Assembly (NCBI RefSeq): GCF_937951745.1
Contig: NZ_CALFBQ010000018.1
Span: 62,001 to 126,000, forward strand
DNA: 64,000 bases
Source of the DNA: an uncultured Chloroflexus sp.
GTDB taxonomy: Bacteria > Chloroflexota > Chloroflexia > Chloroflexales > Chloroflexaceae
Direction of reading: 5' to 3'
Shown here: positions 2,699 to 39,718 of the stretch, piece by piece
Layout: the number at the start of each line of letters is the position of its first letter
Numbering within the stretch: the first letter of the stretch is position 1
The notes under the pieces: model-generated
Database searches by the model: none
What the model was told of the DNA's origin: nothing
Seen by the model: only the letters and a program-made list of their open reading frames with translations
Position numbers and translations under genes: made by a program

Positions 2699-2889
2699 CT
2701 GTTTTAGCGTCAGGGATGCCTGAGCGGATAGATTCCGTGCTCGCAGGGCGGCATCGCCGCGCGGGGAGAGAGCATCGCACTGTCCCTACGCACGGCGATG
2801 CGATGAACAACGAGGAGCGCCAGCGCAATAGCAATCAACTCGAGAAACCGTTATAGTCCTTGTACGTTGAATAACCAAGTAGGTGTCGC

Positions 2890-3708
2890 ATGTATAACGA
2901 TATCGAACAGGCTCGCGCTGCGATTGCGCCGCGCCTGCGCCACATACCGCGGGTTGGCTTGATCCTTGGTTCTGGTCTGAGTGCGCTGGCAGATGAAATG
3001 GATGACGCAGCGGTGATCCCGTACCGCGATATTCCCGGTTTCCACGAGCCAAAGGTGATTGGCCATCGCGGCGAGCTGGCGGTTGGGTTATTGGCCGGAC
3101 AGCCGGTGGCGGTGATGCGTGGGCGCTTTCACTTTTACGAGGGTTACAGCATGCAAGAGGTGACCTTCCCGGTGCGGGTGTTGCGCGCGCTCGGCTGTGA
3201 TACATTGATTGTCACGAATGCCGCCGGCGGGTTATGCCCCGATTGGCAGGTCGGCGATATTATGCGGATTAGTGACCAGATCTTTTTGCCGGGGATGGCT
3301 GGCCACCATCCGCTGCGCGGGCCGAATGACGAGCGGCTAGGGCCGCGGTTTCCAGCTATGGTAGGTGCGTTTGATAATGAACTGGTACCGTTGGCCCGCG
3401 CCGTTGCCGCCGATCTCAACATCACGTTGCGCGAAGGGGTCTACTGCATGTTAAGCGGTCCGCATTTCGAGAGCGCCGCCGAGATTCGGATGGTGCGCAT
3501 GCTGGGAGCTGACGCCGTAGGGATGTCTACCGCGCCAGAGATTATCGTTGCTATTCACGGCGGGATGCGTGTGCTTGGTTTTTCGCTGATTACCAACCTT
3601 GCCCTGCCCGATGGGCCGCCGGCGAATCACATTGAGGTGATCGAAGCCGGTGAGGCGGCCAAGCCGCGATTTGCAGCGTTGTTGCGCGGAATCTTGGCAC
3701 GAATGTGA
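2890..3708 (+). CDS. Purine nucleoside phosphorylase
   Basis: PNP/MTAP family: GLILGSGLSALAD, VMRGRFHFYEGYSMQEVTFPVRVL, TNAAGG, MSTAPEIIVAIHGGMRVLGFSLITNLA. Confidence 0.93.
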   Translation: MYNDIEQARAAIAPRLRHIPRVGLILGSGLSALADEMDDAAVIPYRDIPGFHEPKVIGHRGELAVGLLAGQPVAVMRGRFHFYEGYSMQEVTFPVRVLRALGCDTLIVTNAAGGLCPDWQVGDIMRISDQIFLPGMAGHHPLRGPNDERLGPRFPAMVGAFDNELVPLARAVAADLNITLREGVYCMLSGPHFESAAEIRMVRMLGADAVGMSTAPEIIVAIHGGMRVLGFSLITNLALPDGPPANHIEVIEAGEAAKPRFAALLRGILARM

Positions 3709-3713
3709 ATGGA

Positions 3714-3858
3714 GGAAGGCGCAAAGCCGCAGAGGATGATAAACGCAACGATGCGAAGGTTCTTAGAGGATGGTATAAGCGCGCTTGTGTGCAACATCTC
3801 AAACCCTTTGCGCCCTTCGCGTCGTTGCGTTCAAACCTTTTGCACTCTTTGCGTTCCA
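3714..3858. repeat. REP-like palindromic element
   Basis: aacgcaacgatgcgaag (3742-3758) pairs with cttcgcgtcgttgcgtt (3815-3831), one mismatch; outer ggaaggcgcaaag / ctttgcgttcc also roughly pair. Confidence 0.8.
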
Positions 3859-3869
3859 AGGAGATTGTT

Positions 3870-6665
3870 ATGCGCACCCTGACCCCGCTGACCGAAGTAG
3901 CCGCGATAGATGAAGCGACCCGCACAGCCTTGGCCGCCTATTGGATTACCAGCGTCGAAGAGTTGGTGGCGACTGCGCGGTCGAGCAATACCGGCTTGGG
4001 CAGCGGGCTGGCTGCGCTGGCGCAGGCGCTGGGCCGCAGCGATGACGACGTGCGGGCTATGGTGATGGCGGCGCTCGAGGTCGTGCCTGATGCTAGCTCG
4101 TTCAGCGTTGATGTGGCGATGGAACCGGTCGGCACTGGCGCGATTTTCGACGATCTGCCCGAAGTTGATGCCGCTGCCTTTAGCCCGCCGGTCGGTCTGC
4201 CGAGCGAAGTACCGCCGCTGATGACCCTGCCGCCACCGGTCAGCCAAGGGCCGCGCAATACTTGTGTCGCGTTTACTATCGCGGCTATGGTGCAGACGCT
4301 GAGCAACGATCCCACCGATCTCTCCGAGCAGTTTATCTATTGGATCAGCAAGGAACGTGACCGTATTCCCGGCGATGTCGGCACAAACCCGCTGGTAGCG
4401 CTGCGCGCGGTTGCCGAATTGGGGGTCTGCCGCGAAGAGACGTGGCCGTACCGACCAGAACCGGTTGACCATACTAATCCCGGCCACGAACGACCCAGCG
4501 ATGTTGCCTTCCGCGAGGCCAAGCAGCGCCGGATTGCCGGCATCGATCAGTTGCCGGCCCGCGATGTCAATCAGATCAAGGCGGCGTTGGCCGCTGGTAA
4601 GCCGGTGCTGATCGGGTTGATGATCGGTGAGCATTGGACGAGCAGCGGCCAAGTGCGCCGGATCGGACGGGTGCGCCGCGCCTTGCCCGGCGAGCAGCGG
4701 TTGGGTGGGCATGCAATGTGCGCTTTGGGCTACCGCGATGACCCTTCCGCCCCCGGTGGCGGCTATTTCATTGTGCGCAATTCGTGGGGGAGTGACTGGG
4801 CGAACGAGAACCCAGATGGCCCCGGCTATTGTTATGTGCCATACCAACTAATCTTCGATGAAGGGTTGGCAGCGTTGATCGCCACTGGGGTGATCGTTGA
4901 ACAGCCGAAGGTGGCAACGCCGGCATTAGACGCTGCTTCCGGTGAAACCTTAGCCGCTATCCTTGCCGAAGTGCAGGCCATCCGTACACGCCTCGACACG
5001 CTAATCGAGCGGATCGGTGCGTTAGCTGGCGGCCAGCCGCAATCAGTGGCGCCGGTTGAGGTAGCGCCAGTAACGCCGGAACCAATCCTGTCGCCAGTAG
5101 TCGCCGGTTATAGTGGCCCGCTCATCTTGATTGCCAATGAACAGAGCACCGACGAACTCTACCCCAACGGGATTGATGGCCGGCGCGGCGAGCCGTTGTT
5201 GCGGATTGACGCTAAAACCGCCAGCGATCTCGCTCAACGCAGCGAAGATCCGAAAGAGTTGCAGACTCTGCATAAGACTCGTAACGAGGCCGAAGAGAAG
5301 CATTTCGGCGTGGTTGCTGATGTCGATCAAGAGGATTTGGCTCAAGCGCGCTGGGCATTAGTGGTTAGCGCCACCGATGACGCTCGCCTGATCGAGGCGC
5401 TGTGGCCGTTGATCGATCATCGTGCCCAGCAACAAGGCATTTCCTTGCCGGCAGTCACCTTCCGCCCCGGCGAAACCTGCGCCGAATGGGCCAGCCGCTA
5501 CGCCGACATCCGCCAGCCGTGGGAACAGCGCGTGCCGGTGCTGGTGTGCCGTCCAAACGAGCGGGTTAATGGTTGGTTAGCCCGCCACGGCACAATGGCC
5601 GGTCCGGTCAAACCGAGCCAAGGCGTGCCGTTCTACCTGCTGATCGCGGCCCGGCCCGGCCCGCTGGCGCCGAACGATCAAGCCTTCATCAGCTTCAACT
5701 TCCAGTATGAACTCGATATCTTCTGGGGGGTGGGAAGAGTTTGCTTTACCGATGAACGCGGCCAGCATCGCTATGCTGATTACACGACCTACGCCCAACG
5801 GCTGGTTGACTACGAGCGACGCAAGGCGAACGAGATACGCTTACGCCGTGAAATTGTCTATTTCGGCACCCGCCACGACCTTGATAAATCGACCGAGCGC
5901 AGCGCGATTGAGCTAGTGACGCCACTTTCGCGTTGGCATGACCAAAGCCTGCCGCAGCGGTTGGGGTATGGCAAACGGCTGTTGCTGGCCAACGATGCTA
6001 CTCGCAGCAACCTTGAACAGGCGCTGCGTGAGGATAATCAGCCGCCAGCCATCCTCTTCAGTGCCACCCATGGCCTTGGCCTGCCGGCCAACGACCGCGA
6101 ACTGATCCCATACCAAGGCGCCCTAGTGACGCAAGACTGGACAGGCTTCGGTGGAATCAAGCGCGAGCATTGGTTTGCTGCCGAAGACCTGCCAAGCACC
6201 CTCTCGCTCGAAGGGATGGTGGCGCTGCTGTTTGCCTGCTATGGTGCCGGTTGTCCGCGGCAAGACGAATTTATCTTCGATCCCAACAGAGGCCGCCCGC
6301 TGATCGCGCCCTTCACCTTCGTTGCCCAACTGCCGCAGCAGATACTGCTGCGCGGCGCGCTCGGCGTGGTTGGCCATGTCGAACGCGCATGGACGTATGG
6401 CTTCAGCATGGATGGCGCGCGCAGCCAGACCCAAAGCTTTGAAGATGTGATTGGGCGGCTGATCACCGGCAAACGGCTCGGCAGTGCGACCGATCAATTC
6501 AACATCATTCAAGCCGCTCGCTCGATGACACTCGCCGAAGAGTTAGAGAACATCAAATTTGGCAAGCAACCCGAACCGCGCGAGTTATCCACGCTGTGGA
6601 TGGCGCGCAATGACGCCCGCAACTATATGCTGCTCGGCGATCCGGCGGCCCGGTTGGCGCTTTAA
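3870..6665 (+). CDS. Papain-like (C1) peptidase fused to a caspase/CHAT-like domain
   Basis: C1 motifs QGPRNTCVAFTIA, GGHAMCALGY, FIVRNSWGSDWANENPDGPGYCYVPY; C-terminal AILFSATHGLG and LLFACYGAGCP His/Cys dyad. Start placed at 3870 (aaggag RBS) because the 55-aa extension in the track is the REP-like element. Confidence 0.85.
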   Translation: MRTLTPLTEVAAIDEATRTALAAYWITSVEELVATARSSNTGLGSGLAALAQALGRSDDDVRAMVMAALEVVPDASSFSVDVAMEPVGTGAIFDDLPEVDAAAFSPPVGLPSEVPPLMTLPPPVSQGPRNTCVAFTIAAMVQTLSNDPTDLSEQFIYWISKERDRIPGDVGTNPLVALRAVAELGVCREETWPYRPEPVDHTNPGHERPSDVAFREAKQRRIAGIDQLPARDVNQIKAALAAGKPVLIGLMIGEHWTSSGQVRRIGRVRRALPGEQRLGGHAMCALGYRDDPSAPGGGYFIVRNSWGSDWANENPDGPGYCYVPYQLIFDEGLAALIATGVIVEQPKVATPALDAASGETLAAILAEVQAIRTRLDTLIERIGALAGGQPQSVAPVEVAPVTPEPILSPVVAGYSGPLILIANEQSTDELYPNGIDGRRGEPLLRIDAKTASDLAQRSEDPKELQTLHKTRNEAEEKHFGVVADVDQEDLAQARWALVVSATDDARLIEALWPLIDHRAQQQGISLPAVTFRPGETCAEWASRYADIRQPWEQRVPVLVCRPNERVNGWLARHGTMAGPVKPSQGVPFYLLIAARPGPLAPNDQAFISFNFQYELDIFWGVGRVCFTDERGQHRYADYTTYAQRLVDYERRKANEIRLRREIVYFGTRHDLDKSTERSAIELVTPLSRWHDQSLPQRLGYGKRLLLANDATRSNLEQALREDNQPPAILFSATHGLGLPANDRELIPYQGALVTQDWTGFGGIKREHWFAAEDLPSTLSLEGMVALLFACYGAGCPRQDEFIFDPNRGRPLIAPFTFVAQLPQQILLRGALGVVGHVERAWTYGFSMDGARSQTQSFEDVIGRLITGKRLGSATDQFNIIQAARSMTLAEELENIKFGKQPEPRELSTLWMARNDARNYMLLGDPAARLAL

Positions 6666-10276: not shown

Positions 10277-10614
10277 CGGTGACGTTGGCGGCGCAGCCGT
10301 GGCCGGATGGTGGTCCTGAGCAGACGGTGACGATCGACGATGCGGCGCTAACCAATGTGATTGCGCGCCACCTGCTGGTACCGGGGATGATCCTTGAGTT
10401 GCAGTTTGCCGGTGATCGAGTCGAGCATGCGACCTTGCTCGGTGCGCCTTATTATGCCAGTCTACGCACGGCGTGGCGGCAACCGCCGATTCTGCCTACG
10501 CCAACGCCGCGTGTACTCAGTTTTCGCTGCCCAGCTTGCAACGTGTGGGCGGTGGCAACCGGCGATCCGCTAGTATGTGCGGTTTGCGGCGCCACCGCCC
10601 CTACAGTTAACTGA
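10222..10614 (+). CDS. Hypothetical protein with C-terminal zinc ribbon
   Basis: ORF with C-terminal CPACNVWAVATGDPLVCAVCGA. Confidence 0.7.
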   Translation: MRVVIREVLNVGGFFAGETVTLAAQPWPDGGPEQTVTIDDAALTNVIARHLLVPGMILELQFAGDRVEHATLLGAPYYASLRTAWRQPPILPTPTPRVLSFRCPACNVWAVATGDPLVCAVCGATAPTVN

Positions 10615-12031
10615 TCCGGAAGGTTGCCACCAATCGCCCGAATTGCAATTTTGTGCCATCACTAATCGGGGTTGGCGTTTGCGGTTCGATCCGCGTGCCG
10701 TTCACCCGTGTGTGGTTGGTGCTGTTGAGATCAACGATACTCCACTGATCGCCGGTATGTACGATTTTGGCATGCTGGCGACTCACGCCACCCGACTCGC
10801 CACCGTAAGAGGTCAAGTCAATTTCGGGAAAGATGTTGCTCACCGGGTCCTCGCGTCCAATCACGTACTCGTGTTTGCCCGGCTCAAGGATAATCTCACT
10901 GCCATCAGCTAGCTCCAACCGGGCTACCGCTGGCGGTGGGGTTGGGATAGGGGTAGCAATGGGGGTTGGGACTGCCGGATGGGCGGCTACTGGCTCAGCC
11001 GGCGCTGCCGCAGGTGCCGCTGGCGTTGGGGTGCTGCCGGTCAGGGCAACGAGTTCGGCCTCAGTCTTGGCTAGTTCGGCCCGCGCTGCATCGAGACCGG
11101 CAGTGATGAATGCTGGCACGCTGCCGGCGGGATAGCGGGCAGCCATCTGCGCGTATTGAGCAATGGTGTCGCGGTGCGCCGCCAATAATGCTTCGAGCCG
11201 AGCAACCTCTGCCGGATCAGGGCCGGTGGGGAGCGCCGCCAATTCCGCCTCGGTCTTGGCCAGTTCGGCCCGTGCCGCATCGAGCCCAGCGGTGATGAAC
11301 GTCGGTACGCTGCCGGCGGGATAGCGGGCAGCCATCTGTTCGTATTGGGCGACTGTGTCCCGGTGTGCAGCCAGCAACGCTTCCAGCCGGGCACGCTCGG
11401 CTATTAGATCGATAGGTGCAACTGCTGGGGCGGCTGACGTAGCAGGCGGCGCGGGTGGTTCGGCCACTGGCGGTGCGGGTGATTCGGCCACTGGCGGCGC
11501 GGGTGATTCGGCCACTGGCGGCGCGACCATGGTTGGCCCTTCTGCCGGGATGGCTGGCGTAGGAGCTGGTGCTTCGCTTGCCGGTGGCGTATGGACGGCA
11601 ACAGGCTCTTCTACCGGCGGCGGGGCAATGACGGTAGGCGTGTCAGCGGCGGGCGGCGGGGCAAACAACCTGCTCAGGTCAGCGCCGCAATTGTCGCAGA
11701 ACCGTTCGCCGGGCAACACCGGATCGCCGCAATCAGGGCAGAAGAGTTGCGGTGCGCTAGGTGGCGCGAGCAACGTTGCCTGATCAGGTGTTATTGGCGA
11801 TGCAACTGGTGTTGCCAGCAAGTCGGCGCCGCAATTGTCACAGAACCGTTCACCGGGGAGTACCGTCGCGCCGCACACCGGGCAGGATGGCGCGAGAGCG
11901 GTAGGTTGATCGGGCGAGACGGCTGTGGGCGCGGGAGCGGTTGGCGCTGCGCCGGTTAAGCGGGTGCCGCACTGATCGCAGAAGCGGTTGGTAGGCTCAT
12001 TCTGCGCTCCACAGGAAGGACAGATGATCAT
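10607..12031 (-). CDS. Triple zinc-ribbon / FHA-domain protein with internal repeats
   Basis: Three CPxCG..FCDxCG ribbons, PPVAESPA repeats, two ~60-aa ARLEALLAAHRDTVAQYEQMAARYPAGSVP repeats, C-terminal FHA (YVIGREDP..VSRQHAKI..WSIVDLNSTNHTRVNG). Confidence 0.9.
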   Translation of the reverse strand: MIICPSCGAQNEPTNRFCDQCGTRLTGAAPTAPAPTAVSPDQPTALAPSCPVCGATVLPGERFCDNCGADLLATPVASPITPDQATLLAPPSAPQLFCPDCGDPVLPGERFCDNCGADLSRLFAPPPAADTPTVIAPPPVEEPVAVHTPPASEAPAPTPAIPAEGPTMVAPPVAESPAPPVAESPAPPVAEPPAPPATSAAPAVAPIDLIAERARLEALLAAHRDTVAQYEQMAARYPAGSVPTFITAGLDAARAELAKTEAELAALPTGPDPAEVARLEALLAAHRDTIAQYAQMAARYPAGSVPAFITAGLDAARAELAKTEAELVALTGSTPTPAAPAAAPAEPVAAHPAVPTPIATPIPTPPPAVARLELADGSEIILEPGKHEYVIGREDPVSNIFPEIDLTSYGGESGGVSRQHAKIVHTGDQWSIVDLNSTNHTRVNGTRIEPQTPTPISDGTKLQFGRLVATFRIS

Positions 12032-29008: not shown

Positions 29009-29105
29009 GGTAGAGACGTTGCACGGCAACGTCTCTCGGCAACATCTCTCGGCAACATCTTTCAACAACGTCTCTCGGCAACGTCTCTCCTGCAACGGTC
29101 TCTAT
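29009..29105. repeat. Clustered GTAGAGACGTTGC/GCAACGTCTCT palindromic repeats
   Basis: gtagagacgttgcacggcaacgtctct followed by several degenerate (g)caacatctctcgg units. Confidence 0.8.
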
Positions 29106-30352
29106 TCACCCTCCCACCAATTCGGGTCATACGCCGGCAATTCGCAGCGTAGGTTGGGATACTTACGGTAGCCCATCACGAAATCCGCCTGCAACAGCTC
29201 TTGCAGCTCACGGGTGCCTTCGTAGATGATCGCGCCGCGCGCATTGCGCAGATACCGCTCAACCGGATACTCGTCGGCGTAGCCATACGCGCCGTGGATT
29301 TGGATGGCGTCGTCGGCAGCTTCAAAGCTGCTCACGGTCGCGTGCCATTTAGCCAGCGTCGTCTCGCGGGTGTTGCGCAAACCCTTGTTTTTCATCCAGC
29401 CGGCCCGGTACACCAGCAGCCGCGAGGTGTCGAGTTTGCGCACCATGTGGCTAATCATCCGCTTGACAAGCTGGTGTTCGCCGATCGGCACGCCGAAGGT
29501 CTGCCGCTCGCGGGCATAACGGATGCTGGCTTCGAGACTAGCTTGGATCAGGCCGGTTGCTCCGGCAGCCACCGTGTAGCGACCATTGTCGAGCGCAGCC
29601 ATCGCGATCTTGAACCCCTCCCCCTCTTCACCCAATCGATTCGCGAGCGGCACCCGCACGTCTTGGAAGACGACGCCGCCGGTGTTGCCGGCGCGCACGC
29701 CGAGTTTGCCGTGAATCGGGTAGCTGCTCACGCCGGGCATTGTGCGTTCGACGATGAATGCGGTGATGCCGCGTGGGCCTGCTGTCGGGTCGGTCTTGGC
29801 AAAGACAAGAAAATTGTCGGCCAGATCGGCCAGACTGATCCATATCTTTTCACCGTTAAGAACGTAGTAATCGCCGTCGCGGCGGGCGGTGGCTTGCATT
29901 GCGGCGGCATCGGTGCCGCTGTTCGGTTCGGTGAGACAGTAGGCGGCCAGTTTTTCGCCGCGGGCCTGTGGTGCGAGGAAGCGTTGTTTCTGCTCTTCGG
30001 TGCCCCATTGCAGCAGTGAGAGCGAGTTGAGGCCGGTATGCACGCTCATCACCACGCGCAGAAAGCTATCGACTCGCTCCAACTCTTCACATACCACCGC
30101 CAAAGCGAGATAATCCATCCCGGCCCCGCCGTACCGTTGCGGAATGCAGATACCGAGTAGCCCTAGCTCTCCCATTCGTTTCAGCACCGGACGCAGATGC
30201 GGGCGATCTTCCGGCCCTTCAGCTTTCGCGCCGCTGCGATCCCATTCGCGGATGTGAGGCGCTACCTCGCGCTCGGCGAAGTTGCGCACCGTCTGACGCA
30301 GCATGTCGTGTTCAGGGCCGAGAAACATGTCGTAGTTTGCCGTCAAATCCAT
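29102..30352 (-). CDS. Acyl-CoA dehydrogenase
   Basis: YCLTEPNSGTDAAAMQATA, ERQTFGVPIGEHQLVKRMI, IQIHGAYGYADEYPVERYLRNARGAIIYEGTRELQ. Confidence 0.95.
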   Translation of the reverse strand: MDLTANYDMFLGPEHDMLRQTVRNFAEREVAPHIREWDRSGAKAEGPEDRPHLRPVLKRMGELGLLGICIPQRYGGAGMDYLALAVVCEELERVDSFLRVVMSVHTGLNSLSLLQWGTEEQKQRFLAPQARGEKLAAYCLTEPNSGTDAAAMQATARRDGDYYVLNGEKIWISLADLADNFLVFAKTDPTAGPRGITAFIVERTMPGVSSYPIHGKLGVRAGNTGGVVFQDVRVPLANRLGEEGEGFKIAMAALDNGRYTVAAGATGLIQASLEASIRYARERQTFGVPIGEHQLVKRMISHMVRKLDTSRLLVYRAGWMKNKGLRNTRETTLAKWHATVSSFEAADDAIQIHGAYGYADEYPVERYLRNARGAIIYEGTRELQELLQADFVMGYRKYPNLRCELPAYDPNWWEGE

Positions 30353-33907: not shown

Positions 33908-36900
33908 ATGACTAGCCGTCCAAGCCTGCCTGATCGCTGCTTTGCCGTTTGTGTTGGCGTGAATGAGTACAATCATGTCTCCGGGCTAAGCGCACTGCGC
34001 TACGCCGAGAACGATGCGCGCGCCATGGATGCGCTGCTCAACGATCTGGGCGTACCACCAGAGCATCGTCGCCTCCTTTGTGGCACCGAGGCGACACTGG
34101 CCAATGTCACCGCTGCCCTTGATGAGCTATTCGTTGACCGTGCTGGCGTCAATGATTTTCTAGTGTTCTACTTTGCCGGTCACGGCGTACCGGTCAGTTT
34201 CGATGATGGTGACCCAGAGGTCTTCCTTGCCTCGTGGGATTTTGACTACGCCCAATTACAGAAAAAGTCGTTTCGAATCAATCAGTCGCTGAGTTTACAA
34301 CGTCTGCGCAGGGATTATTTTGAGGGTGAAGGCGCGCGTAAGCGACTATTCATCCTCGATAGTTGCTACAGCGGCGATTTTCTTGGTCCCGGTTATCGTG
34401 ACAACGGGGTAACGCTGGTGCTAAGTGAGGTGAGGCGTCTGCTGCCCGGCAATGCCACTGGGCGGGCGGCGTTGGCTGCTTGCCTACCAAACAAACTGGC
34501 TCGTGAAGACGATCAGCTCCGGCACGGTCGCATGACCTACTATGTGCTGCAGGCGCTGTATGGCCACGCTCCTGATGCTCGCGAGCCAGACGGCTGGGTG
34601 ACGATACAGAGCCTGCATAGTTACCTTGATCGCAACCTCGCGCCATTTCAGCGTCCGGTGCTTAGCGGGCAATTCACGCGCATGCCACTGGTGCACTTTG
34701 AACCGCCAGCTCAGTCTACTCCGCTGCCACCGCTTGATCGTGGTGCGTATCTGCAACGGCTTATCGAACTCAACCAGCAGATTGATCTGCGTGGTTTGGG
34801 CGGGCCGGTGCAGAAACTGCCGCTTGAACGAGTCTATGTGGCGCTGAAAGCGGATGCTGCGCCGCCTGCTGAACGACGCGCCGCTGCCGGCTATGTCGAG
34901 CAACTGGTTTTGTCGCGGGCACCCGATACGTCTGATCCGTACCTCCAGCGGGCATTGATTCGCCAAACGCTGGCCCGTGGTGATCCAATCGCACTCAACC
35001 TGCTGCGCCGTTCTGTTGATGGTGACGCTACGTCGCCTGATGGTCGGCCTTCCCGTCTGAACCTCGGCGAGTTGCTGGCGCGCGAGCGGTGGGCAGTACT
35101 GCTTGGCGATCCCGGCGCCGGCAAGACCACTCTGTTGCGCTGGACGGCGCTTACCTTTGCGCAGGCATTGTTGGCGGGGCGTGAGCGGGTCGTTGTGCCT
35201 GCGGTACAGGTGTACGCTGATGAAGAGAATCCCGATCAGAAGCCAGATGTCGATCTTGGGGCTGCGCGTCTGCCGGTGCTCTTGCGCCTTGCCGACTACG
35301 AAGCGGCGCGCTGGGCGGATGGACGAGATACCAGCTTGACCATTGCTGCGTTTCTAGGCCGTCAGCCTTGGCTAGGCCAGCCGCTGTTCGCTCATGCCGA
35401 GCAGGGGGAACGGCTCTTGCACCAAGCACTGACTCACGGTCAGGCGCTGATCCTGTGTGATGGTCTCGATGAGATTGCCGATCAGACCCGGCGTGGGCGG
35501 GTGGTAGATGCGCTGACCGCATTTATCCACGAGTATGTACGTGATCCGGTGAGTGGCTACTGTCCGGTTGATGAGGATCGAAACACCGATTGGACGCTAC
35601 CGGCCGAACACGGCGGCAACCAAATTCTTATTACCAGCCGCATCGTTGGTTATTATCTGGCCCCCCTGCCCGCCACTATTCCGCATTATACCGTCGCCGA
35701 GCTAAGCGAGGTGGCTATCCGGCGCTTCTGCACAGCGTGGGGGAGTGCAGTGGCCGTAGCAACCGGTGATGCTGACCTACCGGCGCGTGTTGCGACCCTC
35801 GCGCAAGCGCTCGTTGATCGGCAGCGTCCCGATTTGCGCGAATTAGCCGGTAACCCACTCTTGCTGACCGCTTTGATCGCCCAATACGGTGCAGCGCCGA
35901 CCGATCTGCCCCGCCGCCGGGTTGAACTGTACGACCGGGTGACCGATGCCTTTTTGCGGCACCGCCCTGATGCGCTCGTCGCAATCGGGATGAAACACTA
36001 TGAACTGCGCTATGCGCTGGCACAGGTGGCGCTACGGTTGCACGCCGATGCTGACCATCCCACCGGTTTCGTTTCCTACGACGAGTTGCATGACTGGTTG
36101 ACCACGGCGCTGAAAGCGATTGCACCTTCACCGGAAAGGCAGCGGCGTGCGCGGATCGATGCTGAAGCAATCATCACGTATGTGCGTGAGGCGGCCGGGT
36201 TGTTTATGGAGCGTTGTGAAGGTATCTACGCCTTCCTCCACCGCAGTTTTCAAGAATATTTTGCAGCGCTAGCGTTGAGTTGGGACGATACCGAGGCAGC
36301 ACAGGCGATTACTGCTCGTCTCGATGACCCGGCGTGGCATGAGGTGCTGATCCTTGCCATTGCTAATCTTAGCCGTACTAAGCAAAAGCTGACAACACTA
36401 ATGCGGGCACTGATTAACGCGCCTGAACCGGCGCCGGGAATCTTGCCACGCAATGCACTGTTCATCGCTCGCTGTGTTGGTGAGCTGATCACTCCGCCGC
36501 CAGCAGAAGTCGTTGCCGAAGCGGTAGTACAGTTGGTGACTGCCTGTGCTCCCCATACATGGCCTGCCACGATCGCTGACGATACGCCCGCACCGTTGCG
36601 TGCAGCAGTGGTGACAGCATTAAAACAACTGTGGTCGCAATCCGGCGCTGTGAAAGGCATGGTTCAGGTGATGACCGATCCTGATCCAGCTCGCCGCTTC
36701 GCTGCCATTGATCTTCTGCTGGAATGTGAGCTGACACACCCTGATCTTGTACCGGTGCTGATTGTTGCAGGCCGTGATTTCGTCGAACCGACAGCAATCT
36801 TGCTCAAGGCTATCGAGCGGTATGCCGAGGTATATCCCACTGCCTTCACCCCAGCATTGCTACCGGTGCGTCGCTGGCTGCACGCCGGAGACGACGGGAT

Positions 36901-39718
36901 TGATCCGGCGTGGCGCATGCTGATCCGTGCCGTCTATAGCTTGGGATGGCGTGCGCCAGATGTGCCGCTGAACGCCGCTGAGGTGATGCTTGACTCGCCG
37001 CTCACCCCGCTGCTCGAACCGCTCTGGCAGCGGCGGGCCGCGCCGGCAGATCTGATCACGGCATTGGAAACTTACCGTGCGTCTACAACTGATCACGCGC
37101 TGATGCGTGATGTGGCTTTGGCGTTGAGTATCCTCACGGGTGCTGATTGGCGCGATCTACCGCTGCCGGTGCAACGCGCTGTTGCAGGACGCATTATTCA
37201 GCGTTGGCTTACTACTATCGCACGCCTAGAGGAACCTCTTTTCCATACCCTTTATCTTAATCTCAATCTCGACCTCGTCCGCACTCGCGATCGCGCTACT
37301 GATTTCGACCTCAGCCTCGACTTTGCCCGCTCTCGTGCCTACGCCCTTTCCCATGCTCCTAGCCGCTATGTTCGTGTCCCCGATCGTCCCTATGTTCGCA
37401 CCTACGCTTTCGCCCGTGCCTATGCCTGCGCCGCTGCTCGCGCTCGTATCCGGGCCGCTGCTCGCGCTCGTATCCGGGCCGCTGCTCGCGCTCGTGTCCG
37501 GGCCGCTGCTCGCGCTCGTATCCGGGCCCGTGCTATTGCCCACACTCTCGTCCGTTTTCACGCCATTGTCCTCGCCTTTAGCCGTGCCATCGACCGCGCT
37601 CGCACCCTCGACGGCGATCTCGATCATGCCCTTGCTCGTGTCCGCATTCGTGCTCATACCCGCGCACAAGCCCTTATCCTCGCGCGCACACGTGCCCGTG
37701 CTCTTGCCCGTACTCGTGTGCGTACTCGTGCCCGTGGGCGGGCCCGTGCCCTTGCCCGTATCCTTATCCTTACCCGCGTCCGTGCTCATGTGCGTGCCCG
37801 CGCTCGCAACCTGCTGAATACGATATGTGTTCTGATCGGTCAGTATTTAGATCGGGCTTTAGTAGAAACAGGCGTCGATCACGTATCGATTGCTCAGGCG
37901 CAGGCAGCGTTGCCCGATGTGCGCGCATTGGTAAATGAACATGGAGTGAGCGAGTGGCAGTTGGCGGTGGATGTGTTGGCAAATCAATTGGTGCAGCCTG
38001 ATGGTGCGGTGTTTGATGGTCGACGAAGGCTGACTCTGTCGGCAGATGTGACCTTGCCGTTAACAACCGAGCAGCATGCAGCCTTAGCACTGCCGAATGA
38101 GGTAAAGAAGCGGCGTGCTGTGCTGGCGCAGGTACGTGGCTGGCTTACGAGTGCCGATCCGGTCGCGCGCGCGAGTGCCAGTCTGCTGCTGCTTGAAGCC
38201 GGTGAGCGCACACCGGAATCGGTTGCTGCCGCATTAGATCTGTTGACCAGCCCACATGATCTGTTCCGCTACCGGGCGTATCGGGTGCTCGTGCGTGATA
38301 GTAACGCCGATGAGTGGTCGTTGTCAGCAATCGAGCGGCTAGCACAGGTGGCGCAGGAAGGGCATACGATTCTTGAGGGACATCTGCGCACGATGTATGC
38401 CGGCTGGGCGTTGCAGCGGATTGAGTATACGGACGCTGCTTGGATCACCGACTGGATCGCGCGGTCTGATGCGGGTGATCGGGTCAGTCGCTACATACTC
38501 GGCTCGATCCATCGCCTTGCTGAGGGGTGCTGGCCCCCACTACTAGACAATTTGCGCATCGCAAGTCCCGACACGCAGGCGGCAATTCTCACTTCGCTCT
38601 ACTGGCTCTTGCAGGCCACACCGCCTCGGCATCCGCACCTATCGGCTACGGTGGATGTTCTGCTTGGCCTGAGTGCCGCGCCGTCGCCGGTTAGCGCGAT
38701 GGCGCTGCGAGCATTAGGCTCTGCCCGCGCTCTTAGTGCAGACCAGACGGCACAGCTCTGTCAATTGGTGGAGCTGTCTGAACCGCCAGCGGCGCTGTGG
38801 GCAACGTTGGCTCGGTTGAGTAGCTTGCCCAACACTGACACTATTGCCGTTACTCTCGCTGCTGCGCCGGACATACCGGCCGTGCGTGCTGCGCGGGTAC
38901 GACGGGCGGTGCAGCAGGGTATTGCGGCAAAACGGCAAGCTATCTCGTTGGCGGAACTGACTGCAATTGTTCCTAAACCTGCTGATTGCCTTGCAGCGTT
39001 GCTGGCAGCGGGGGCTGATGAAGACCGGTGGAGTGATTACCATGAGCGGATTGCCGACGCCATTCGCGACCTGCTCGCTATCCATGACTGCCTCTTACCA
39101 GAGCTGCTTGCCCGGTTGCGAAATACTGACGCCGGATGGCCTTCGCAACGGATTGCATTGGCAGCGTTGGCACGCTGTGCAACCGCGATGCCTGAGTGGT
39201 TCAACGCGCTGGCCGCCAGTTCTGATCTGGTGTCACTATTGCTGAGCAGCGCCGTGAGTCAGGTGAGTTTCGATGCGCGTCGCTTTGCTATCACTGCCCT
39301 TGCCGCGCTACGCGAAATAACCGGTGAAGTGCTGACGGCACTCTTCCGACTCGTCGGTGACATTGTGGAATTGCAAAATGATATCATCGATGCAGCACGG
39401 CGCTTCAATCGGCTGCACCGCGACCTCGGCGAGCGGTTGCCAGACGAGTTGGTACAGGCGCTTACCGGCGAAAGCGCCGTTCGTGCCTATGTTGCCGCAC
39501 AAGTGCTCGAGGCGCTTGGCACGTCAACGGCCACTATGATCACACCCGGTCTACGCCGCCAGATCGTTGCACTGTTGGCCGATGCCCTACGTGATCCACG
39601 CAGTCGGCGCAGTGTCTGGCGTTGGAATGGGAGTGACATTGAAGAAGCTGGCACGCTCAATCAGTCCTTCTACCGCGCATTGCTGCGTGTAGCAGGATTC
39701 AAAGTAGAGAAGGAATGA
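33908..39718 (+). CDS. Caspase-like (C14) - NACHT NTPase - HEAT-like repeat protein (NLR-like STAND)
   Basis: H92/C153 dyad in VFYFAGHG and FILDSCYSGDF; Walker A LLGDPGAGKTTLLRW; Walker B LILCDGLDEIAD; NACHT FLHRSFQEYFAALAL; C-terminal HEAT-like helices. Confidence 0.93.
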   Translation: MTSRPSLPDRCFAVCVGVNEYNHVSGLSALRYAENDARAMDALLNDLGVPPEHRRLLCGTEATLANVTAALDELFVDRAGVNDFLVFYFAGHGVPVSFDDGDPEVFLASWDFDYAQLQKKSFRINQSLSLQRLRRDYFEGEGARKRLFILDSCYSGDFLGPGYRDNGVTLVLSEVRRLLPGNATGRAALAACLPNKLAREDDQLRHGRMTYYVLQALYGHAPDAREPDGWVTIQSLHSYLDRNLAPFQRPVLSGQFTRMPLVHFEPPAQSTPLPPLDRGAYLQRLIELNQQIDLRGLGGPVQKLPLERVYVALKADAAPPAERRAAAGYVEQLVLSRAPDTSDPYLQRALIRQTLARGDPIALNLLRRSVDGDATSPDGRPSRLNLGELLARERWAVLLGDPGAGKTTLLRWTALTFAQALLAGRERVVVPAVQVYADEENPDQKPDVDLGAARLPVLLRLADYEAARWADGRDTSLTIAAFLGRQPWLGQPLFAHAEQGERLLHQALTHGQALILCDGLDEIADQTRRGRVVDALTAFIHEYVRDPVSGYCPVDEDRNTDWTLPAEHGGNQILITSRIVGYYLAPLPATIPHYTVAELSEVAIRRFCTAWGSAVAVATGDADLPARVATLAQALVDRQRPDLRELAGNPLLLTALIAQYGAAPTDLPRRRVELYDRVTDAFLRHRPDALVAIGMKHYELRYALAQVALRLHADADHPTGFVSYDELHDWLTTALKAIAPSPERQRRARIDAEAIITYVREAAGLFMERCEGIYAFLHRSFQEYFAALALSWDDTEAAQAITARLDDPAWHEVLILAIANLSRTKQKLTTLMRALINAPEPAPGILPRNALFIARCVGELITPPPAEVVAEAVVQLVTACAPHTWPATIADDTPAPLRAAVVTALKQLWSQSGAVKGMVQVMTDPDPARRFAAIDLLLECELTHPDLVPVLIVAGRDFVEPTAILLKAIERYAEVYPTAFTPALLPVRRWLHAGDDGIDPAWRMLIRAVYSLGWRAPDVPLNAAEVMLDSPLTPLLEPLWQRRAAPADLITALETYRASTTDHALMRDVALALSILTGADWRDLPLPVQRAVAGRIIQRWLTTIARLEEPLFHTLYLNLNLDLVRTRDRATDFDLSLDFARSRAYALSHAPSRYVRVPDRPYVRTYAFARAYACAAARARIRAAARARIRAAARARVRAAARARIRARAIAHTLVRFHAIVLAFSRAIDRARTLDGDLDHALARVRIRAHTRAQALILARTRARALARTRVRTRARGRARALARILILTRVRAHVRARARNLLNTICVLIGQYLDRALVETGVDHVSIAQAQAALPDVRALVNEHGVSEWQLAVDVLANQLVQPDGAVFDGRRRLTLSADVTLPLTTEQHAALALPNEVKKRRAVLAQVRGWLTSADPVARASASLLLLEAGERTPESVAAALDLLTSPHDLFRYRAYRVLVRDSNADEWSLSAIERLAQVAQEGHTILEGHLRTMYAGWALQRIEYTDAAWITDWIARSDAGDRVSRYILGSIHRLAEGCWPPLLDNLRIASPDTQAAILTSLYWLLQATPPRHPHLSATVDVLLGLSAAPSPVSAMALRALGSARALSADQTAQLCQLVELSEPPAALWATLARLSSLPNTDTIAVTLAAAPDIPAVRAARVRRAVQQGIAAKRQAISLAELTAIVPKPADCLAALLAAGADEDRWSDYHERIADAIRDLLAIHDCLLPELLARLRNTDAGWPSQRIALAALARCATAMPEWFNALAASSDLVSLLLSSAVSQVSFDARRFAITALAALREITGEVLTALFRLVGDIVELQNDIIDAARRFNRLHRDLGERLPDELVQALTGESAVRAYVAAQVLEALGTSTATMITPGLRRQIVALLADALRDPRSRRSVWRWNGSDIEEAGTLNQSFYRALLRVAGFKVEKE
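37240..37810 (+). repeat. Degenerate hexanucleotide-periodic low-complexity tract inside the caspase-NACHT gene
   Basis: Runs of 6-mers such as cccgtg/ctcttg/cccgta/ctcgtg; almost all codons end in pyrimidine; encodes alternating X-(L/R/F/Y/H) dipeptides. Confidence 0.9.
37430..37525 (+). repeat. Four tandem 24-bp repeats (gccgctgctcgcgctcgtatccgg)
   Basis: 37430-37453, 37454-37477, 37478-37501 (one substitution), 37502-37525; in frame, AAARAR[IV]R x4. Confidence 0.97.

Follow-up and report, generated by a model that had tools for sequence, protein, structure and literature searches.

A hexamer-coded, variable tract with a near-identical 24-bp tandem array in a caspase-NACHT gene of a Chloroflexus species

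Bacterial NACHT (bNACHT) proteins protect against phage (PMC12169576), and in multicellular bacteria, filamentous chloroflexi included, sensors linked to STAND/NACHT proteins are diversified by diversity-generating retroelements (DGRs) (PMC10907252). In Podospora anserina, het-d and het-e contain near-identical WD40 repeats that are thought to undergo unequal crossing-over and that show length polymorphism (PMC12222747). Satellites have also been described in prokaryotic genes with amino-acid repeats (PMC6749651).

The gene considered here lies in a 64-kb stretch of DNA from an uncultured Chloroflexus sp., the whole of which was analyzed and is termed the window. Like the bNACHT anti-phage proteins, its product has an N-terminal effector, a central NACHT region and a variable C-terminal part, as predicted from sequence, and it contains a tract encoded by degenerate hexanucleotide repeats (hexamers), a feature that is not described in the bNACHT literature searched. 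Its hypervariable part is on a STAND/NACHT protein, as in the DGR-diversified sensors (PMC10907252), although the tract appears to change in steps of one or more complete hexamers rather than through adenine-directed substitution. Like the fungal het-d and het-e NLRs, it carries near-identical repeats in the C-terminal part of an NLR-type receptor, but there the unit is an entire WD40 repeat and here, in one genome, it is an eight-residue dipeptide block without a known fold. The array of these blocks is head-to-tail, near-identical, in frame and a multiple of three in length, as are bacterial coding minisatellites and VNTRs, and unlike them it is placed within a longer, two-position hexamer code common to the NACHT genes of distant taxa. 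Among open-licence papers, no report was found of NACHT proteins with hexanucleotide or dipeptide tracts, and a hexamer-coded tract of NACHT proteins in two phyla, conserved in position and variable in content, appears to be undescribed.

The host gene and its 24-bp array

The features of the locus are collected in Table 1. The N-terminal effector domain of this NLR-related NACHT protein is a caspase domain, which is recognized by both Pfam (1.2e-10) and PADLOC (6.7e-15) and in which the caspase His and Cys motifs, FAGHG and DSCYSG, are both present. The NACHT region of the window protein gives a Pfam match (E 6.6e-4, 20 bits) that is under the cut-off of 26.7, and is identified as a NACHT NTPase by this weak match together with its motifs (Walker A GDPGAGKTT, and ILCDGLDEIAD) and the tblastn alignment of relatives over residues ~385-845; the G006 homologue scores over the cut-off (31.2 bits). 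The C-terminal half beyond the tract is 70, 51, and 48% identical to its counterparts in G036, G063, and G006, respectively, and contains no Pfam repeat domain at E 0.001. Judged from a dN of about 0.17-0.23 against a dS of about 1.1-1.4 in comparison with the G036 homologue, tract excluded, the gene is under purifying selection. This closest homologue (G036, locus L021) reads TAG in frame at codon 614, within its NACHT region, and yet retains the tract. Two other ORFs that overlap the window tract, of 164 (+) and 187 (-) amino acids, are regarded as by-products of its stop-poor composition.

Table 1. Coordinates of the caspase-NACHT gene, its domains and its repeats within the window
Feature	Position	Strand	Basis
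Caspase-NACHT (NLR-like) gene, 1936 aa	33908..39718	+	ORF, Pfam, PADLOC, dN/dS
Caspase-like effector domain	33938..34681	+	Pfam Peptidase_C14, residues 11-258
NACHT NTPase region, ~residues 396-831	35093..36400	+	Weak Pfam match, tblastn to relatives
Hexamer / alternating-dipeptide tract, 564 bp	37250..37813	+	Period-6 signal, codon use
Four 24-bp tandem units, AAARAR[IV]R	37430..37525	+	Sequence, Tandem Repeats Finder, shuffles
A to G, Ile to Val, unit 3	37496	+	Unit comparison
Second, more degenerate array	37691..37759	+	Tandem Repeats Finder periods 6, 12, 24; 65-73% matches
C-terminal half beyond tract	37814..39715	+	Conserved in G036, G063, G006

The initial annotation described four near-identical, in-frame 24-bp units within the tract, and these are real, with the positions, the single A-to-G change and the encoded motif all as it gave them. 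The units start at 37430, 37454, 37478, and 37502. Units 1, 2, and 4 have the same sequence, GCCGCTGCTCGCGCTCGTATCCGG, and the substitution in unit 3 is the sole difference between units, such that in the frame of the gene the array reads AAARARIR / AAARARIR / AAARARVR / AAARARIR. Tandem Repeats Finder reports it at 37430-37528 with a period of 24, 4.1 copies, 97% matches and no indels, and its score of 191 is the highest in the window. Each unit corresponds to four hexamers and keeps the phase of the period-6 signal around it. The longest run of identity at lag 24 in the tract, with up to two mismatches allowed, is 75 bases, compared with a maximum of 31 when the tract's in-phase hexamers were shuffled 20,000 times and of 36 when hexamers from outside the array were resampled (20,000 draws). 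Hence the array far exceeds chance, even against the tract's own hexamers, and as a set of tandem, near-identical, in-frame units it is by itself an ordinary coding minisatellite.

Two other tandem repeats of the window were recorded. At 11445-11525, a 24-bp repeat (3.4 copies, 94%) encodes VAESPAPP in frame within the minus-strand ORF 10607-12031, whose 474-residue product has zinc-ribbon-like and FHA-like parts, and at 29024-29103 a 13-bp unit is repeated six times (CGGCAACGTCTCT, 83%) beside the minus-strand ORF 29102-30352.

That the expansion is recent, as had been suggested, is supported relative to the surroundings, given one substitution in the array against ~50% identity at lag 6 in the neighboring hexamers. 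This near-identity is the sole basis for recency, and homogenization by gene conversion would look alike. By exact search the core of the unit was found four times in its own genome, the 40 relatives searched lack it, and the complete unit is absent from the viral contigs searched. When the tract was used as a DNA query, its own genome gave the tract itself and chance-level matches; matches to the array within the genus were weak, lay outside comparable tracts and were not counted. The copy number of four, which may reflect an assembly error, comes from one genome of the species, and genomes of this species or close to it may be absent from the contig scans.

The hexamer tract and its occurrence in NACHT genes

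Outside the array, identity within the window tract is 0.48-0.53 at lags of 6, 12, 18, and 24 and drops to about 0.18-0.34 at lags not divisible by six. Codon usage in the tract is also distinctive, since 93% of its codons end in a pyrimidine compared with 52% of the gene's other codons, as do 19 of its 20 Leu codons compared with 69 of 247 elsewhere (p 2e-9), and the third base of its Ala codons differs similarly from that in the rest of the gene (p 4e-12). The window tract is more degenerate than those of its relatives and includes Pro, Gly, and His, and for this tract a strict helix constraint fails.

The tract is found in the same place in the homologues from G036 (protein 70% identical) and G006 (41%), where it has about 88 and 123 codons, respectively, compared with about 184 in the window, and its sequences in these two genomes cannot be aligned with that of the window tract. 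It is also in the same place in G063, with both flanks conserved and again with a different length and a sequence that cannot be aligned, while a contig of G054 (L038) stops within the tract directly after flanks that are very like those of G006. What is left in G004 is a decayed C-terminal remnant without a tract of any length; the gene beside this remnant (L023, ~2803-4400, minus strand) is of NACHT type and contains numerous WD40 repeats that closely resemble one another, which is a different instance of high internal conservation. Contigs that stop inside a hexamer tract were observed in both G054 (L038 and L180) and G210 (L204). Such ends are expected if short-read assembly fails there and suggest that these assemblies can break inside the tracts, in which case the number and length of hexamer tracts may be underestimated.

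Tracts in other genomes were recognized with the hexamer pattern GMYCKY, which replaced a looser one (RNYCNY) that matched many unrelated repeats and for which the control was about as rich. In G006, G063, G020, and G210, positions 1, 3, 4, and 6 of the hexamer are almost fixed as G, C, C, and C, while position 2 is A or C and position 5 is G or T, and the pattern in G369 is nearly the same. Each hexamer then encodes a dipeptide with Asp or Ala first and Leu or Arg second. Mixed [A/D][L/R] tracts across the Chloroflexota fall in NACHT genes, directly seen in seven cases (G006, G036, G054, G020, G064, G369, and G210) and assigned by family in an eighth (G063), whose contig starts past the NACHT region. 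No long mixed tract was seen outside NACHT genes in these scans, a link that applies to long mixed tracts only and is based on few cases, as simple Ala-Leu or Arg-Asp runs elsewhere match the pattern. Such simple runs outside NACHT genes were observed in L181 (G062, Ala-Leu) and L182 (G079, Asp-Arg). The Ala-Leu run in G062 is in a different protein, the hit in G034 has another frame and codon pattern, and the run in G208 is Arg-Asp-rich, and none is a tract of this kind; G354, G365, and G079 were set aside as no matching long ORF was found. One of the tract proteins, L177 (G020), has an FGE-sulfatase domain in addition to NACHT, and folds of that kind are diversified by retroelements in other bacteria.

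Some tract proteins end with an NCH2 domain, and in the cyanobacterial locus L227 the order is NACHT, tract, NCH2. Among 30 cyanobacterial loci with NCH2, RNY/YNY alternation reaches a score of 20 or more out of 30 in 10, each of which outscores 30 codon shuffles of its own gene. The NCH2 profile found no match across 121 Chloroflexota genomes, yet hmmscan gives one in L203 (G369), which the profile search misses, and the negative result hence does not show absence. That hexamer tracts recur among NACHT proteins is the larger finding and is not mentioned in the initial annotation.

In the tract of the cyanobacterial locus L239 all 19 Leu codons are CTC, and in the lower-GC cyanobacterial genes CTC predominates within the tract while TTG, TTA, and CTG are used freely in the rest of the gene. 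Because codon choice departs in this way from the rest of each gene, the sequences argue that the tract spread as DNA, and the codon choice is explained by DNA-level copying but not by selection on the protein alone. Selection on the protein seems to act as well, since residues are restricted to A/D and L/R when the same hexamer frame could encode Gly/Val or Pro/His, although this restriction may instead be a founder effect.

The initial annotation had also proposed that one mechanism may generate repeats at both scales. In favor of this, block duplications beyond those in shuffles were found with a period of eight hexamers (48 bp) in the G036 tract (p 0.005) and of ten hexamers (60 bp) in the G210 tract (p 0.002), and the result for the G064 tract is marginal (0.028). 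Over all lags, however, block duplication is not significant in four of the eight tracts tested (G006, G020, G063, and G369). A single process acting at two scales is plausible, therefore, but is not general on present evidence.

Origin of the array and possible role of the tract

The array probably arose when a block of four hexamers was duplicated locally and in tandem, inside a tract that is hexamer-coded and fast-changing and lies in the C-terminal half of the caspase-NACHT protein. Such a tract would gain and lose single hexamers and blocks by replication slippage or by unequal recombination between degenerate repeats, and changes in its length would be tolerated because six bases, or multiples of six, never break the frame. 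Its instability is suggested by the comparisons between species. Selection would then retain mostly helix-suited residues, which in the best-preserved tracts are A, D, L, and R, and the predicted product is a long, mostly helical segment whose length and charge vary. Placed in what is putatively the sensor half of the protein, this segment might act as a spacer or provide a binding surface that can change. A single-sequence AlphaFold2 model of residues 1080-1400 contains, over the tract, a 99-residue helix (~1165-1263) that includes the array and has pLDDT mostly 60-82, in a model of low overall confidence (mean pLDDT 53.6, pTM 0.28). Ala-rich sequence tends to be modelled as helix.

It is possible, if rather doubtful, that the tract is an ordinary coding minisatellite without a role, where the tract is tolerated padding and the array arose by neutral slippage. 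In its sequence the array alone does resemble a coding tandem repeat, the window tract is degenerate enough to admit Pro, Gly, and His, and an unrelated gene of the window also contains an in-frame 24-bp repeat (11445-11525). Neutral slippage does not predict, however, that the hexamer grammar recurs at corresponding sites in the NACHT genes of two phyla, nor on its own does it predict that well-preserved tracts are restricted to A/D and L/R. That restriction, seen in G006, G063, G020, and G210, would be accounted for, as would the long helix of the AlphaFold2 model, if selection at the protein level favored an alternating helix or helical-repeat surface and the hexamers simply followed from the amino acids with no spread at the DNA level. 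This is very improbable, as third positions, which should then be free, are almost all pyrimidine, unlike in the rest of the gene, and are so in lower-GC cyanobacterial genes as well, and the exact 24-bp copies need copying of DNA. It is scarcely credible that the tract is written by a targeted diversification system such as a DGR, even though these elements act on STAND/NACHT-linked sensors in filamentous chloroflexi and the FGE-sulfatase domain in the G020 tract protein is a fold that they use. DGRs make substitutions at template adenines in a variable repeat (PMC10907252), whereas the tract varies in length, has two-state positions that are A/C and G/T, and displays neither adenine-directed substitution nor a variable repeat of set length.

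Local duplication within a fast-changing tract, which is the preferred reading of the array, can be extended only tentatively to the wider and, as presently judged, unlikely proposition that a variable, hexamer-coded element is common to the NACHT receptors of Chloroflexota and Cyanobacteria. This element would be a DNA repeat, fixed at four positions and two-state at the other two, which grows, shrinks and reshuffles in frame and diversifies the receptors without a dedicated mutator enzyme by means of helical segments that vary in length and charge. If such an element exists, the 24-bp array would capture a recent event within it. Turnover of whole hexamers, if true, would provide bacterial NLR-like receptors with a simple and frame-safe way to vary a part of their putative sensor half, and it would stand beside retroelement-driven hypermutation.
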